Shown: positions 53,274-60,021 of the stretch, piece after piece
Numbering within the stretch: position 1 is the first letter of the stretch
How the letters are laid out: every line of letters starts with the position of its first letter
Assembly: GCA_024643325.1 (NCBI GenBank)
Contig: JAHEND010000003.1
Coordinates: forward strand, 62,001 to 126,000
Direction: 5' to 3'
Length of the DNA: 64,000 nt
DNA from: Sediminicola sp.
Lineage (GTDB): Bacteria > Bacteroidota > Bacteroidia > Flavobacteriales > Flavobacteriaceae
The notes under the pieces: generated by a model
Told to the model about the DNA's origin: nothing
Seen by the model: the letters and a program-made list of their open reading frames with translations, nothing else
Databases searched by the model: none
Position numbers and translations under genes: made by a program

Positions 53274-56200
53274 CTACTCAATGCCTTGTCCAGCCAAATA
53301 AGGCGCTCCAGCTTTTTTAAGCGCTGCTTCTATAGCAGGTACTTTTTCTTCAGCCAACTCTTTAATAGCCCCCTTCATATTTTCCAATAATTCGGCAGCA
53401 ATTTGTAGACTCTGCATGTGAAGCGGAGTTGGGCCATAAGTGGTCCCCATGCCTCTCATAGCTACGCTTAAATGATCTTGCCAAGAGGCAGGATTACGCT
53501 CTCCTATCACATTTTTAGAAGGGCTGCCATCTATTTGTTTGCGTAAATCAGCCAACGCTTTTTTAGCGTCGGTGATTTGAGACAAAATAGCCTGAGGATC
53601 TGTAGCAGTTCTATACAAGGCTATCTCAAACGTCCCTAGTTTTTTATCTGCCATAGACAGCGCGTCTTCGTAGGCAGCACTTTCATTTAAAAGGGCTTTT
53701 ACACGTGTAAAGTAGTTGTTAAATGTCGCGTAGTCTACCCCTTTTAATACCCCTTCTCTGATGGGTTTTACTTCAAAAGAAACGGGGCCGTCTAATGGAG
53801 TAATAACCCCATCTTTTTCCATAGAAAGATGGGCTATATAGGTTCCAGGAGTAGCCATTGGCCCTCCAGATCTTCTGCCGCCGCTTCTATTATTGACTGG
53901 GTAAGGGTTGGCGTGTCTTAGGTCCCAGGAAATTCTTTGAGAACCTTTTTTAGGCTTAGCTGTGATGGTTCTGATCAAGTTGCCCTGAGCATCTTTGATG
54001 TGAAGTAACAATTTGGCAGCTGTTTCGGAAGCCTCTGCATCTAATGCGTCCCAGCCAGGGAAAGGCACATTGTCATTGGCGCCTAATTTTTTCTCTTCAT
54101 CCTGTCTTTTGGCTTTTAAACTCTTGTATTCATCTTTCATATGAACCGTGAATTCCGCCCCGAAAGTTGGGTTTTCTGCAAAGTAATAATCTGCTCCTGT
54201 GTTTCCTACATTGCTTCTTGGCACATACCATTTAGCCGTTCTTGGCGCAAATAAAGCGGCTTTTTTGTTGAGGTTTTCAGCAGAGAAGTCTCTCAATGGG
54301 GCATAGTTGTCTAGCACAAAGAAACCACGGCCAAAAGACGCCGCCACCAAGTCATTTTCTTCTCTTTGAATGGTAATATCTCTAAAAGAAATGGTAGGCG
54401 TACCACTCATTTTTTGCCAATTTTGTCCTCCGTTTAAGGAGGTGAAAACACCATTTTCAGTGGCAGCAAATAACAGGTCTTTTTTAACATAATCCTGTAC
54501 CATTCTCCAAACGAGGTTTCGTTCTCCGAGATCTTTGCCTAGGGAGCGCCATGTTTTACCCATGTCATTAGACATAAATAAATACGGCTTGTAATCTCCC
54601 TCTTTATGGTTGTCTAAGGACACATAAACGGTGTTTTTGTCAAAGAGGTCTGCTTTAATATCATTTACAAATGCCCTTGAGGGTAACCCCAATTTGGTCA
54701 CAGGAATTTTAGTCCAATTGTTCCCTCCGTCTGTGGTGTATTGAATAATACCGTCGTCTGTACCTGCCCAAAGCATTCCTTCTTGCACTTCAGATTCAGA
54801 CAAAGAGGTAATGGTGTTGTAATTAGACATAGCCCTTACATCCCAAGCATTGTCCCAAGACTGTTGCTTGCCCATAATAGGCAGCTCAATGCGCGCTTCA
54901 TTTCTAGTAAGGTCTCCAGAGATAGGGGTCCAAGAATCTCCCCTGTCTTCTGACTTCCAAACGCGGTAAGAAGCAAAATAAAGTCTAGAAGCTTTGTGTG
55001 GGCTTACTAATATTGGGGCGTCCCAATTAAATCGCTCGTGGGGTTCACCCGCCCTAGCTTGTGGCTGAATCATTACAGGCTCTCCAGTAGTGAGGTCTAC
55101 TCTGTGTAAGCCCCCTTGCTGTGTTTCTGCATATATAATATTTGGGTTTTCTGGGTCTGTAGCAGACTGATGCCCGTCTGCAAATAAGGTTTTATACCAG
55201 TGTTTGTTGGCAATACCTTCTCGCTCATCTGTAGCAGAAGGCCCTCCTGAAGAACCGTTGTCTTGGGTCCCTCCAAAGATGTGATAAAAAGGTTTGGCGT
55301 TGTTTACGGCCACCTTATAATATTGGGTAAGCGGTAAGTTTTTGTGGTATTTCCAAGTATCTGCCAGGTCAAAACTCTCATAGATTCCAGCATCTGTTCC
55401 CAACATAATATAGTTAGGATCGTCTTTTTTAAAGACAATAGCATGATTGTCTGAGTGTTTGTCAGATTCTTTTAAAGTGGCAAAATTAGCCCCGCCATCT
55501 TCTGAAGTTAGTACCCTTACATTCATAAGGTATAAACGGTCAAATTTGTGCGGACTAGCATATAATTCTTGATAGTAGTGTGGTCCGGTTCCACCGGAAA
55601 CAGTATTGGACATTTTTTTCCAAGAGCTTCCGCGGTCTTCAGATCTAAAAACCCCACCAGTGGTTCTGTCTAATTCTATAGCCGCATAGACCACATCTGG
55701 TTTTTGTGGGGAAATGGCCAGGCCTATTTTGCCGAGGTTTGAACTTGGAATACCAGAGGTGAGTTTGGTCCAGGTTGCTCCCCCGTCTGTAGAGCGATGA
55801 ATACCAGATCCAGGTCCTCCACCCATATAGGCGGCTACTGTTCTGTGTCTGTCCCAAGTGGCAGCGTATAAAACGTCTGCATTTCTCGGGTCCATTAATA
55901 GGTCAGTGGCACCGGTCCATACGTTGTCTCCAAGTACTTTCTTCCAGTTTTTTCCACCGTCCGTTGTTTTGTAAACGCCACGGTCTCCACCAGAACTCCA
56001 TAAAGGTCCCTGAGCGGCTACCCAAACTACCTCAGCATTGTCTGGATGTACTATAATTTTAGAGATGTGCTCTGAGTTTGGAAGCCCCATGTTTTTCCAT
56101 GACTTTCCTCCGTCTGCGCTTCTGTATACACCGTCTCCAAAAGCGATATGACGCCCCCCTACATTTTCTCCACTCCCTACCCAAATCGTACTGGGGTTGT

Positions 56201-56522
56201 TGGGATCTATAGTCACACAGCCTGCAGCAAAGGTGCCTTGACCTTCAAAAATAGATTGCCAGGTAGTCCCGGCATTTTCTGTTTTCCAAACCCCGGAAGA
56301 AGCAGTCGCTACATACCAAAGATTATCGTTTTCAGGATGCATGGCTATATCTGAAATACGTCCAGATAAAAATGCAGGGCCCACGTTTCTGAATTTAAAT
56401 GCGTCTAACGAGATCTTATCTGAGCTTGTTTCAGCGATCTTTTTTCTTTTTTGTGCCGATGCTTCTTCCACGGATATGAGCAGCATAAAAAAGGCCAAAA
56501 AAGGGATTAAAATTTTTTTCAT
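53274..56522 (-). CDS. Secreted VPS10/sortilin-like BNR-repeat protein
   Basis: A 1082-residue exported protein. The signal peptide (MKKILIPFLAFFMLLISVEEASA) is followed by about ten repeats of the BNR Asp-box (S/T-x-D-x-G-x-x-W): SADGGKSWKNM, TTDGGKNWKKV, STDGGATWTKL, SEDRGSSWKKM, TTDGGNNWTKI and others, forming a beta-propeller up to about residue 720. The C-terminal third is a fibronectin-like region plus helices. Flavobacterial homologues are called VPS10 domain or glycosyl hydrolase, though hydrolase activity is not shown by motifs. It is transcribed away from the gasdermin-like gene. Confidence 0.88.
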   Translation of the reverse strand: MKKILIPFLAFFMLLISVEEASAQKRKKIAETSSDKISLDAFKFRNVGPAFLSGRISDIAMHPENDNLWYVATASSGVWKTENAGTTWQSIFEGQGTFAAGCVTIDPNNPSTIWVGSGENVGGRHIAFGDGVYRSADGGKSWKNMGLPNSEHISKIIVHPDNAEVVWVAAQGPLWSSGGDRGVYKTTDGGKNWKKVLGDNVWTGATDLLMDPRNADVLYAATWDRHRTVAAYMGGGPGSGIHRSTDGGATWTKLTSGIPSSNLGKIGLAISPQKPDVVYAAIELDRTTGGVFRSEDRGSSWKKMSNTVSGGTGPHYYQELYASPHKFDRLYLMNVRVLTSEDGGANFATLKESDKHSDNHAIVFKKDDPNYIMLGTDAGIYESFDLADTWKYHKNLPLTQYYKVAVNNAKPFYHIFGGTQDNGSSGGPSATDEREGIANKHWYKTLFADGHQSATDPENPNIIYAETQQGGLHRVDLTTGEPVMIQPQARAGEPHERFNWDAPILVSPHKASRLYFASYRVWKSEDRGDSWTPISGDLTRNEARIELPIMGKQQSWDNAWDVRAMSNYNTITSLSESEVQEGMLWAGTDDGIIQYTTDGGNNWTKIPVTKLGLPSRAFVNDIKADLFDKNTVYVSLDNHKEGDYKPYLFMSNDMGKTWRSLGKDLGERNLVWRMVQDYVKKDLLFAATENGVFTSLNGGQNWQKMSGTPTISFRDITIQREENDLVAASFGRGFFVLDNYAPLRDFSAENLNKKAALFAPRTAKWYVPRSNVGNTGADYYFAENPTFGAEFTVHMKDEYKSLKAKRQDEEKKLGANDNVPFPGWDALDAEASETAAKLLLHIKDAQGNLIRTITAKPKKGSQRISWDLRHANPYPVNNRSGGRRSGGPMATPGTYIAHLSMEKDGVITPLDGPVSFEVKPIREGVLKGVDYATFNNYFTRVKALLNESAAYEDALSMADKKLGTFEIALYRTATDPQAILSQITDAKKALADLRKQIDGSPSKNVIGERNPASWQDHLSVAMRGMGTTYGPTPLHMQSLQIAAELLENMKGAIKELAEEKVPAIEAALKKAGAPYLAGQGIE

Positions 56523-56698
56523 GAGTTGGTTTTTTTGGTTTTCCCGCCAAGGGGAATTGTTAATTACCTAAAGATAATGAATTAGTGCAAGCAAAAAAAC
56601 ATCGGCCAAAGGTCATTTAATTAGGACTATTGACACAAAAAGACAAAAAGCTGGATTATGAGGTATCTTTAATTCAAAGGCGGTAAAGGGTTAAATAT

Positions 56699-57415
56699 AT
56701 GAATATGCTACAATCAAATTTGAGTAAAAACCTAAGGGAACACGGATACGACCTGCTTGGCGGGCCAATTAGAAGTTATAAATTATTGCAGTTGTGGCTG
56801 AAGGTTCCCGCCAACCCTATTGAGTTGTATTACGCTCACATAAATCATGCATTTGAATCTAAAAAGTCCCTTGAGGTCTCTGAGAACAGCGCATTAAAAG
56901 TGTCTTCTAGGTATAAAAACGAATATTTGTTTAATATGGGAATGTCTTTGTTGGAACCACTTTTAAGTGCTTTTGGACTTGGAAACCTCTCTTTGGAAAC
57001 CCTGATTACCTCTGGAAAGTCTATAAGTATTTCTTATGAAGGATCAGAGTCTGAGGAATTGGTGATGGGAAGTTTGGAAAATTATTTGCACCAGGCAGAT
57101 TATTTACATCCTAATCCCAGCCTGTTCTCCCACGCAAACAAGGATCAAATTCTACTAATTTCAGGGGTTTTGTGGGCTAAGAATCTCGTGATTAACATAG
57201 AAACAGATATTGAAATATCTCCTTCTCTAATATTAAAGCTAGATAAAAAAACAGACGGGAAACTCAATACTTTTAAGAAAAATGACAAGGTGCTAAAGCT
57301 TGTTTCGGAGGGTAAAATGCCTTTTCCTATAGCGGTAAAAGCAAACAGATTACATTTTGACAAAGGCCATTTTAAGGGCACTAATTTAGTAACTGACAAT
57401 CGCTCTTTATTTTAG
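56699..57415 (+). CDS. Candidate bacterial gasdermin (pore-forming, bGSDM-like)
   Basis: A 238-residue cytosolic protein without signal peptide or long hydrophobic helix. I match it to bacterial gasdermins by pattern: the start LREHGYDLLGGPIRSYKLLQ resembles the N-terminal L-x-x-x-G-Y-x-L segment; ALKVSSRYKNEYLFNMGMSL and LLSAFGLGNLSLE resemble the strand before the pore-forming sheet; GKSISISYEG, then SLENYLHQAD, VLWAKNLVINIE and EGKMPFPIAVKANRLHFDKG (205-224) follow the same order as in known members. The C-terminal tail (about 228-238) could be the short inhibitory peptide. No Cys is present for the N-terminal palmitoylation seen in some members. No caspase-like protease is adjacent. The call is from motif order only. 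Confidence 0.55.
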   Translation: MNMLQSNLSKNLREHGYDLLGGPIRSYKLLQLWLKVPANPIELYYAHINHAFESKKSLEVSENSALKVSSRYKNEYLFNMGMSLLEPLLSAFGLGNLSLETLITSGKSISISYEGSESEELVMGSLENYLHQADYLHPNPSLFSHANKDQILLISGVLWAKNLVINIETDIEISPSLILKLDKKTDGKLNTFKKNDKVLKLVSEGKMPFPIAVKANRLHFDKGHFKGTNLVTDNRSLF

Positions 57416-57507
57416 GATTTTTATCTGTAGCGTTTCATAATAGAGGAAAGGGTGCTAAGCAAAATTTCTTTGGTATCTTTAAAGGGTAAAACCTTAAACC
57501 CTTTCTT

Positions 57508-60021
57508 ATGTTATTGAGATTATTTACCCTGCTGTTGTGTTGCAGTAGTATGGCTTTTGGCCAAGACTATTTTTATGAAAAATATGCTCCTTTTAATCAG
57601 GAGGTGGCTTCTCCAGCGTCTTTTTTAGGATACGACATTGGCAGCCAACACAGCCGTCATGACTTAATTGTGGGGTATTTAGAACAATTGGCAGCGGGAT
57701 CTGACCGCGCTCAAATCATGCCCTACGGAAAAACCCACGAAGGAAGAAAACTGGCATTTTTAGTGGTGAGTAGCCCTGAAAACCTCGCTAGATTGTCGGA
57801 AATTAAAGCAGCGCATATAGCTTCTATAAAAAGTGGGGAAGCGCCAAAAGGCAAAGCGCTTCCGTTAATTATAAACCTAGCTTATAACGTACACGGAAAC
57901 GAACCATCTAGTTCAGAGGCGGCTCTTTTAGCAGCTTATACGTTTGTGGCCTCTAAAAATGCTGAGATAGAAAAATACTTAGAGAATGCAGTTATTTTTA
58001 TAGATCCAACGATCAACCCAGACGGTAGAGATAGACACACCCAGTGGGCCAACACTTATAAAGGAAGCCCCTTGGTGGCAGATCCTCAAGATGCAGAGCA
58101 CAATGAATATTGGCCTGGGGGTAGAACCAACCATTATTGGTTTGACCTTAACCGAGACTGGTTGTTAACCGTAAATCCTGAAAGCCAAGGAAAGGTGGCT
58201 TGGTCGCATGAATGGTACCCTAATGTGGTGACTGATTTTCACGAAATGGGCAGCCAGAGCACGTACTTTTTTGAGCCCATGAAGCCCAACGCTTCTTGGG
58301 ACCCCATTATGCCAAAAGAAAACTATACCACCTTAAATGATCTTTTTGGAAGTTATTTTTCAAAAGCCTTAGACAGCATAGGGTCTTTGTACTTTACCAA
58401 AGAAGCTTTTGACGGCACATATCCAGGATACGGCTCTTCTTATCCAGATCTTCAAGGCGCTTTGGCTTTGTTGTTTGAACAAGCCAGTTCAAGGGGTTTA
58501 AAGCAAACTACAGCTTTTGGAGAAATCACCTTTCCTTTTACGATAAGAAACCAATACGTTTCTAGTATTACTACGGTGAAAGCAGCAGTAGAAAATGCCG
58601 CTATGCTTCAGGCGTATCAGCGGGATTTTTTTAAGAGTGCTTTTTCAAATGCCGCAGCCAGTAAAATTAAAGGCTACTCTTTTAAAGAAACGGATCAAAA
58701 CCTAGCCAAGGCATTTATTGGAAAACTAAACACCCATAAGGTCTCTGTGTATGAAATCGCAAAAGATCAATATGTAGTGCCTACCGCTCAGGCGCAATAC
58801 CGAATGGTTCAGAGTTTCTTTGAGACCTACAATAAATACAGGGATTCTGTTTATTATGACGCAAGCGCTTGGTCTGTGGCTAATTTTTTTAATATTTCTT
58901 ATAAGCCTCTTACCAAACTTCCTAAGTTGGGCAGCCCTTTAAATGAAGCAGACGTAGTAAAAGCACCTGATTTTGTCCCTTCAGACTATGCGTATGCTAT
59001 TGACGCCAGAGATTATAATGTTCCTGCAGCCATAGCGCATTTGCAAAATAATGGCGTAGTGCTTTCTGCGGCCTTTAAGCCTTTTGAAGTGTCTACCTCA
59101 GTAGGAGCAAAGCCTTTTTCATACGGATCCCTTATGGTTCCTGTGGCGCTACAAAAAATCTCAAAGGACAGCTTGGCTAGCTTAATGGCAGATTTACCCA
59201 ATAAATTAGGAGTTTCGGTGTCTGCTGTACAATCTGGTTTAAGCCTATCTGGAGTAGATTTAGGAAGTAGGAATGTGCGCCCACTACAAGCACCTAAAGC
59301 CGCTATGATTATTGGGAATGGCACTTCTTCATATGAAGCAGGAGAGATTTGGCATTTGTTAGACACTCGCGTGGGTATGCCTATTAGCAAATTACCTATC
59401 AGAAATTTAGACCGTGTTTCACTAGAGGTCTACAATACTTTAGTGATGGTCTCTGGCCGGTATGCATTGTCTGAGCGGTTTACAAAAAAACTTTCTGATT
59501 GGGTGTCTAAAGGGAACACTTTAATTACTATTGGCAGCGGTTCTTCTTGGGTGGTGAACACTAAATTTGTAAACGAAAAACTGATTAAAGCCCCCTCAGA
59601 CTCCACTGAAATAGTACAGAGAAAACCCTATGTTGACGCTGGAGAAAACATAGGGAGAGAAGCCTTAGGTGGGGTATTTTTAAAGGGCTATATAGATTTG
59701 ACTCATCCGCTTGGATTTGGTTACGATCAGTCTAGAATAGCCTTGTATAAAAACAATGAGGTTTGGCTGTCTCCCTCGAAAAGCGCCTATGGTACTGTAA
59801 TAGATTATGCAGACAACCCACATTTAGACGGCTATATTTCACCAAAAAACAGCCGTGATTTTTTACCTAAAAGCGCCTCACTCATTGTGAGTCCTAAAGG
59901 CAGTGGTCGTGTAGTGATGTTTGCAGACAACCCAAATTTCAGAGGGGTGAATTACGGAATGAATAGGCTTTTCTTAAATGCTATATTTTTAGGAAACCAT
60001 ATAGAGGTGCCTGCCGAATAA
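57508..60021 (+). CDS. M14 family zinc carboxypeptidase (secreted)
   Basis: An 837-residue secreted metallopeptidase. Signal peptide MLLRLFTLLLCCSSMAFG precedes the M14 core: NLAYNVHGNEPSSSEAAL (zinc ligands His and Glu), DPTINPDGRDRHTQW, and TDFHEMGSQSTYFFEP (third ligand His). LLFEQASSRGLKQTTAFG carries the catalytic Glu. A long C-terminal region (about 450-830) has a GATase/THUA-like fold with MIIGNGTSSYEAGEIWHLL. It is 92 bases after the gasdermin-like gene, with a TATCTTTA element (57474-57481) between, so independent expression is likely. Confidence 0.9.
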   Translation: MLLRLFTLLLCCSSMAFGQDYFYEKYAPFNQEVASPASFLGYDIGSQHSRHDLIVGYLEQLAAGSDRAQIMPYGKTHEGRKLAFLVVSSPENLARLSEIKAAHIASIKSGEAPKGKALPLIINLAYNVHGNEPSSSEAALLAAYTFVASKNAEIEKYLENAVIFIDPTINPDGRDRHTQWANTYKGSPLVADPQDAEHNEYWPGGRTNHYWFDLNRDWLLTVNPESQGKVAWSHEWYPNVVTDFHEMGSQSTYFFEPMKPNASWDPIMPKENYTTLNDLFGSYFSKALDSIGSLYFTKEAFDGTYPGYGSSYPDLQGALALLFEQASSRGLKQTTAFGEITFPFTIRNQYVSSITTVKAAVENAAMLQAYQRDFFKSAFSNAAASKIKGYSFKETDQNLAKAFIGKLNTHKVSVYEIAKDQYVVPTAQAQYRMVQSFFETYNKYRDSVYYDASAWSVANFFNISYKPLTKLPKLGSPLNEADVVKAPDFVPSDYAYAIDARDYNVPAAIAHLQNNGVVLSAAFKPFEVSTSVGAKPFSYGSLMVPVALQKISKDSLASLMADLPNKLGVSVSAVQSGLSLSGVDLGSRNVRPLQAPKAAMIIGNGTSSYEAGEIWHLLDTRVGMPISKLPIRNLDRVSLEVYNTLVMVSGRYALSERFTKKLSDWVSKGNTLITIGSGSSWVVNTKFVNEKLIKAPSDSTEIVQRKPYVDAGENIGREALGGVFLKGYIDLTHPLGFGYDQSRIALYKNNEVWLSPSKSAYGTVIDYADNPHLDGYISPKNSRDFLPKSASLIVSPKGSGRVVMFADNPNFRGVNYGMNRLFLNAIFLGNHIEVPAE

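Follow-up and report, generated by a model that had tools for sequence, protein, structure and literature searches.

By sequence homology, a gene at positions 56699-57415 of the window (the whole 64,000-nucleotide stretch of DNA analysed here) encodes a gasdermin related to those of other bacteria. Our best reading, to which we assign a probability of roughly 55%, is that it is a stand-alone, cytoplasmic, core-only bacterial gasdermin that is activated without removal of a C-terminal peptide. Gasdermins are the pore-forming family behind inflammatory cell death in animals, and the bacterial members studied need proteolysis, according to excerpts of PMC9079055, PMC10989679, PMC9612521 and PMC12547243. 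The gene described here suggests that cleavage may be dispensable for some bacterial gasdermins. We further propose, tentatively and at slightly below even odds, that a lineage of such proteins in at least five genera of Flavobacteriales does without protease, inhibitory peptide and palmitoylation, and carries a new cleavage-independent switch, the first in bacteria.

The gasdermin gene and its neighbours

The features of the locus, by position in the window, are:

53274..56522, minus strand: Sortilin-Vps10/BNR protein (Pfam), divergent, probably outside the system; no homologue in the viewed stretches of other genera
56569-56576: promoter-like element TATCTTTA, 54 bp before the BNR start
56664..56671, plus strand: promoter-like element TATCTTTA, 35 bp before the gasdermin start; kept in 5/5 syntenic genomes
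56699..57415, plus strand: stand-alone gasdermin coding sequence, 238 aa; NF051890 and PADLOC bGSDM matches, purifying selection
56744..56803, plus strand: codons 16-35 (GYDLLGGPIRSYKLLQLWLK), within the most conserved stretch of the lineage (alignment of 12)
57371..57412, plus strand: short C-terminus, codons 225-238; LVTD and the final F invariant in 12/12 (alignment of 12)
57474..57481, plus strand: promoter-like element TATCTTTA, 34 bp before the M14 start; kept in 5/5 syntenic genomes
57508..60021, plus strand: Peptidase_M14 zinc carboxypeptidase (Pfam), probably outside the system; among the carriers viewed, adjacent to the gasdermin in this genus alone

The open reading frame starts with ATG and comprises 238 codons without a single Cys, and it contains, in the order given, all of the motifs that a first-pass annotation had quoted when it proposed a candidate gasdermin of this length and composition. 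That proposal was borne out by profile searches: the NCBIfam model NF051890 (prok_gasdermin) matched the protein with 107.4 bits against a curated cut-off of 100, over model positions 1-203 of 203, and the PADLOC model bGSDM matched it with an E-value of 3.2e-21 (74 bits). Pfam yielded no match, and a search of the PDB with the single sequence came back empty up to E 1. When a profile of 12 lineage members was used instead, the PDB search recovered 8sl0 (E 3.3e-5) and 7n51 (E 4.8e-5) over profile positions 57-201, and no other match up to E 10; a confident match to another family, which the annotation had named as one result that would speak against a gasdermin, did not appear. AlphaFold2, run on the window protein together with L001-L003 (four near-identical sequences), gave no usable model (pLDDT 33, pTM 0.24), and the basis on which a gasdermin fold is attributed to the protein is sequence homology.

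Comparison with three close relatives (94-99% identical) gave dN/dS values (NG86) of 0.0053/0.277, 0.0125/0.328 and 0.0315/0.96, a ratio below those of both neighbouring genes, BNR and M14, in each of the three comparisons. Against the more distant G006 (65% identical), where dS is saturated, the gasdermin's dN of 0.285 exceeded that of BNR (0.129) and M14 (0.199). The gene, with one match per genome (a single copy), is thus a real, conserved gene under purifying selection.

In the window's genus, the gasdermin lies between the BNR and M14 genes in 5/5 carriers. Both neighbouring proteins have signal-peptide-like N-termini, as judged by eye, in agreement with their earlier description as a divergent secreted VPS10/BNR protein before the gasdermin and an M14 carboxypeptidase after it. 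The element TATCTTTA, which is over-represented in the window (13 occurrences, 4.75 expected) and is probably a promoter element of this organism, precedes each of the three genes. As had also been noted before, M14 has such an element of its own, and so need not share an operon with the gasdermin; moreover, since the elements before gasdermin and M14 are both kept in the five syntenic genomes, the gasdermin is probably transcribed alone. We also observed M14 without BNR or gasdermin beside it in four genomes of the genus (L045-L048, in G003, G007, G008 and G010), indicating that the locus was rearranged within the genus.

Beyond the genus, the gasdermin was found in five other settings, beside genes other than BNR and M14. 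In g174 (Pfam on G184) these are a GDSL lipase and an ABC/FtsX pair; in G474, META and DapD-like genes; in G738, Mpo1-like and DUF4494 genes; and in G431, a 219-aa open reading frame without a Pfam match, upstream of the gasdermin. The setting in G070 comprises an esterase, YbaB and a prolyl oligopeptidase, the last about 560 bases downstream with an opposite-strand gene in between, and not seen at the other loci. A PADLOC scan of nine neighbours in the window gave 0/9 matches at E 0.01, so that no defence-gene neighbourhood was found by this measure at the window locus; the neighbours in other genera were scanned by Pfam only.

The C-terminus, cysteines and candidate proteases

The first-pass annotation had described a short C-terminal tail. 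The tail is indeed short, but it is shorter still than this description implied, the region of the cleavage site and inhibitory peptide being missing by length and alignment. After the NCBIfam core, 25 residues follow in the window protein and its three close relatives and 26 in the other eight lineage members (six of these lengths were read directly and six worked out from match coordinates), as compared to 59 in the caspase-linked protein L019; the lineage thus stops 33-34 residues earlier. In an alignment of L019 with 7n51 and 8sl0, the core ends at residue 215 of chains of 266 (7n51) and 237 (8sl0) residues. The lineage would therefore end at about residue 240, near the end of 8sl0, which we take to be the activated pore form, and some 25 residues short of the end of 7n51. 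The tails were thereby compared with a single intact caspase-linked relative, L019, and with the PDB chains. The second caspase-linked protein, L018 (L018:9589-10308, in G024), continues in frame for 18 residues beyond the core. Just downstream of its gene, a tail-like stretch with PLLIEL at its end can be read in another frame; the shortening of the L018 protein may reflect a frameshift, a sequence error or a real difference.

According to excerpts of PMC9079055 and PMC9612521, cleavage of the Runella gasdermin occurs after L247, and the cut in bacterial gasdermins lies some 20 residues short of the C-terminal end. Considered together with these cut sites, an end near residue 240 would leave little room in the lineage's C-terminus for a cleavage loop plus an inhibitory peptide of about 20 residues, and by length and alignment we found no such peptide behind a cleavage site in any lineage member. 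Rather, codons 225-238 appear to stand in the place that the linker and cleavable inhibitory tail occupy in studied members. Such a lack of an inhibitory C-terminal part is compatible with a short built-in clasp. The last 14 residues, which carry the motif LVTDxRxxF in most lineage members, are moderately conserved (mean identity 0.79 vs 0.73 overall; rank 48 of 225 segments of that length). Of the 12 best-conserved 14-residue segments, ten have their first residue between 15 and 26, and the remaining two begin at 158 and 160 (ranking over nine rows, with the near-copies L001-L003 left out). As for cysteines, 11 of the 12 lineage proteins have none and the twelfth has one at residue 154, so an N-terminal Cys is found in 0/12; the palmitoylated N-terminal Cys of some known members is missing, as the first-pass annotation had said of the window protein.

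That annotation had also noted the lack of an adjacent protease and suggested a survey of the neighbourhood in relatives. In the stretches viewed (in most cases 8-13 kb per side; G184 offered 4 kb on one side, and G011 about 5 and 8 kb), a caspase-, CHAT- or trypsin-like protease adjoined the gasdermin in 0/12 carriers, where the contig of G431 ends 250 bases downstream and the Pfam scan of loci covered the nearest open reading frames. The genome-wide search covered the families C14, CHAT and Trypsin_2. Peptidase_C14 was absent from 9/9 carriers tested (all but G431, G474 and G738), on which ground an unlinked caspase-like protease was rejected as a partner; in the caspase-linked genomes, a Peptidase_C14 gene adjoins the gasdermin in 2/2. 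CHAT proteins were found in 3/12 carriers: G070, G474 and G738 have a single unlinked copy apiece, and the nine carriers of the window's genus, g174 and f2 have none. Trypsin_2 gave at least one match in 11/12 carriers, the nearest about 22 kb from the gasdermin (G070); in the window's genome it matched a single protein, which is HtrA-like and carries a hydrophobic segment at its N-terminus. Since this search was positive in 13/14 genomes as compared to 12/14 control genomes, the presence of Trypsin_2 alone says little. The window's genome is 89.7% complete and that of G001 64%, and the protease absences rest mostly on G006, G184, G407 and G417, which are 99-100% complete and have neither C14 nor CHAT.

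A patchily distributed lineage in Flavobacteriales

Altogether, we collected 12 distinct carriers, the window included, from five genera of Flavobacteriales and six settings without common neighbours. All 12 proteins exceed the NCBIfam gasdermin cut-off and match PADLOC bGSDM, and all are 233-242 aa long by the start codons chosen (the longest open reading frame of L001 would give 261). They share 45-99% identity with one another and 13-20% with two caspase-linked gasdermins of the same family, from which they are split in a 14-row tree by a branch with a support of 100/100. A direct profile comparison between the lineage and these two gasdermins gave a weak match (51% probability, E 1.5e-4, 77 columns). 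Short loci of the same genes were counted once. Set aside were the matches below cut-off in G258, G181 and G859 (lipoprotein-like proteins), the weak partial matches in G103 and G170, and the caspase-linked G024 and G347.

The frequencies are not independent, since the genome draws overlap. Of the 12 genomes surveyed in the window's genus, five carry the gasdermin, all over the NCBIfam cut-off; when only genomes with a completeness of 90% or more and a contamination of 5% or less are considered, the count is 2/5. The family draw (397 genomes) gave nine matches, six of them over the cut-off: four of the lineage (the window's genome, G006, G184 and G070) and the two caspase-linked (G024 and G347). 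In the order draw (395 genomes), the lineage profile matched six genomes, five strongly, adding G431 (from another family), G474 and G738, and in the phylum draw (395 genomes) four matched, three over the cut-off. The gasdermin is present in 3/27 genomes of g174 (the genus of G184), in 1/2 of the genus of G070 and in 1/3 of the family of G431. This patchiness (5/12 and 3/27 genomes of two genera) is more what one would expect of an accessory, defence-type gene than of a housekeeping gene. Four scans of viral contigs found no relative, and phage and plasmid records gave no match to the window protein; we thus see no sign of a mobile carrier.

Several weaker likenesses came up in the same searches. 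Three Bacteroidota proteins with lipoprotein-like N-termini, as judged by eye (L023:9612-10349, L022:9398-10276 and L067:7600-8520), matched the gasdermin profile weakly, with 21-27 bits against the cut-off of 100, over much of its length, and are possibly exported gasdermin-like lipoproteins. L065 matched the VPA1262 family with 18 bits, far below cut-off, and the PADLOC KwaB model matched 3/12 lineage gasdermins weakly, e.g., L020:13164-13862, with a best E-value of 2.2e-6.

Proposed switch, alternatives and known systems

Taken together, these results fit the annotation's description of an orphan or differently activated gasdermin, and we infer the different activation. A lineage gasdermin would still assemble membrane pores, under a switch that does not depend on a dedicated protease clipping off a C-terminal peptide. 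Its resting state is probably held by the short C-terminus (LVTDxRxxF) packed on the N-terminal block (residues 16-35), a region that would also receive the inhibitory peptide in studied members; in the Bradyrhizobium gasdermin, as described in an excerpt of a review, that peptide packs in the vicinity of residues 21-29 and of the lipidated Cys 3 (PMC10989679). Alternatively, or in addition, the resting state may be held by self-association, as in TrichoGSDM. Release would then be triggered, without cutting, by a lipid, membrane stress, a phage factor or another such signal, and the most likely outcome would be a killed or leaky cell, plausibly as abortive infection. Points that speak against this reading are the proteolysis required by studied bacterial gasdermins, the unlinked CHAT proteins and the Trypsin_2 matches of the carriers, the moderate conservation of the last 14 residues and the weak profile match to the two caspase-linked gasdermins.

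The protein could conceivably be a pore-forming gasdermin that is still switched by proteolysis, through a protease that is either unlinked or general, be it a subtilisin-like enzyme, Clp, Lon or one encoded by a phage. Clp, Lon and similar proteases are expected in any such cell. This explanation, which we consider unlikely, is in keeping with the cleavage activation of the studied bacterial members, with the unlinked CHAT proteins of three carriers and with a protease search that covered three families; yet C14 is absent from all nine carriers tested and CHAT from 9/12, and the C-terminus appears to have little room for a cleavage loop and a peptide of about 20 residues. Less probable again is a domesticated gasdermin fold that has lost its pores and taken on a housekeeping or membrane-binding role, as may be the case for pejvakin. 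The ordinary gene neighbours, including the nine in the window that gave no PADLOC match, would suit such a role, as would the strong purifying selection and the loss of a Cys which helps studied members to form pores (according to an excerpt of PMC9612521). However, the core is full length against NF051890, so that by length the pore-hairpin segments are kept, and the gene's presence is patchy in the manner of defence genes (5/12 genomes of the genus, 2/5 of the good ones, 3/27 in g174).

A partnership of the gasdermin with the M14 carboxypeptidase or the VPS10/BNR protein is very improbable and was rejected: the three genes do stand side by side in every carrier of the genus, but the two neighbours bear, by eye, signal-peptide-like starts, each gene has its own promoter-like element, M14 is kept without the gasdermin in four genomes, and in other genera the gasdermin has other neighbours. 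Scarcely credible, finally, is that the protein is no gasdermin at all. The lack of a Pfam match, the empty single-sequence PDB search and the weak KwaB matches would agree with this; against it, every lineage member passes the NCBIfam cut-off and matches bGSDM, and in the PDB the lineage profile finds gasdermins and nothing else up to E 10.

The nearest known systems are the Runella, Bradyrhizobium and Vitiosangium gasdermins with a linked protease (PDB 7n51, 8sl0), with which the lineage shares a homologous core over the whole NCBIfam model. Unlike them, it has no linked protease in the stretches viewed, no N-terminal Cys, little apparent room for a cleavage loop and peptide, and no PADLOC match among the nine window neighbours. 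In excerpts of PMC13305819, PMC12547243, PMC12881547 and PMC11760362, cleavage-independent activation is reported for eukaryotic gasdermins only. Titles and the beginnings of abstracts, among the matches listed, mention no protease-less bacterial gasdermin lineage, though primary papers of 2022, 2024 and 2025 may mention one. A bacterial lineage without tail and protease would demonstrate a different means of keeping the pore core in check and of setting it free, and it offers small proteins (233-242 aa) for the study of cleavage-independent control.

The closest parallels in build are RCD-1 of Neurospora and TrichoGSDM of Trichoplax, described in excerpts of PMC12547243 and PMC11760362 as eukaryotic core-only, cleavage-independent gasdermins. 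Like the lineage, they are single domains without an inhibitory C-terminal domain, of 244-257 residues as compared to 233-242 here. RCD-1, however, has two incompatible alleles, whereas the lineage has one gene copy per genome, and TrichoGSDM has a disulfide switch, whereas the window protein has no Cys. Cleavage independence is reported for these two proteins and, on our reading, would extend to the lineage; the likeness drawn here is one of description. The same holds for the animal protein pejvakin (DFNB59), which is likened by description, through its reduced C-terminal part and unclear processing (excerpt of PMC9612521). The lineage thereby bears on the origin of core-only gasdermins such as RCD-1.
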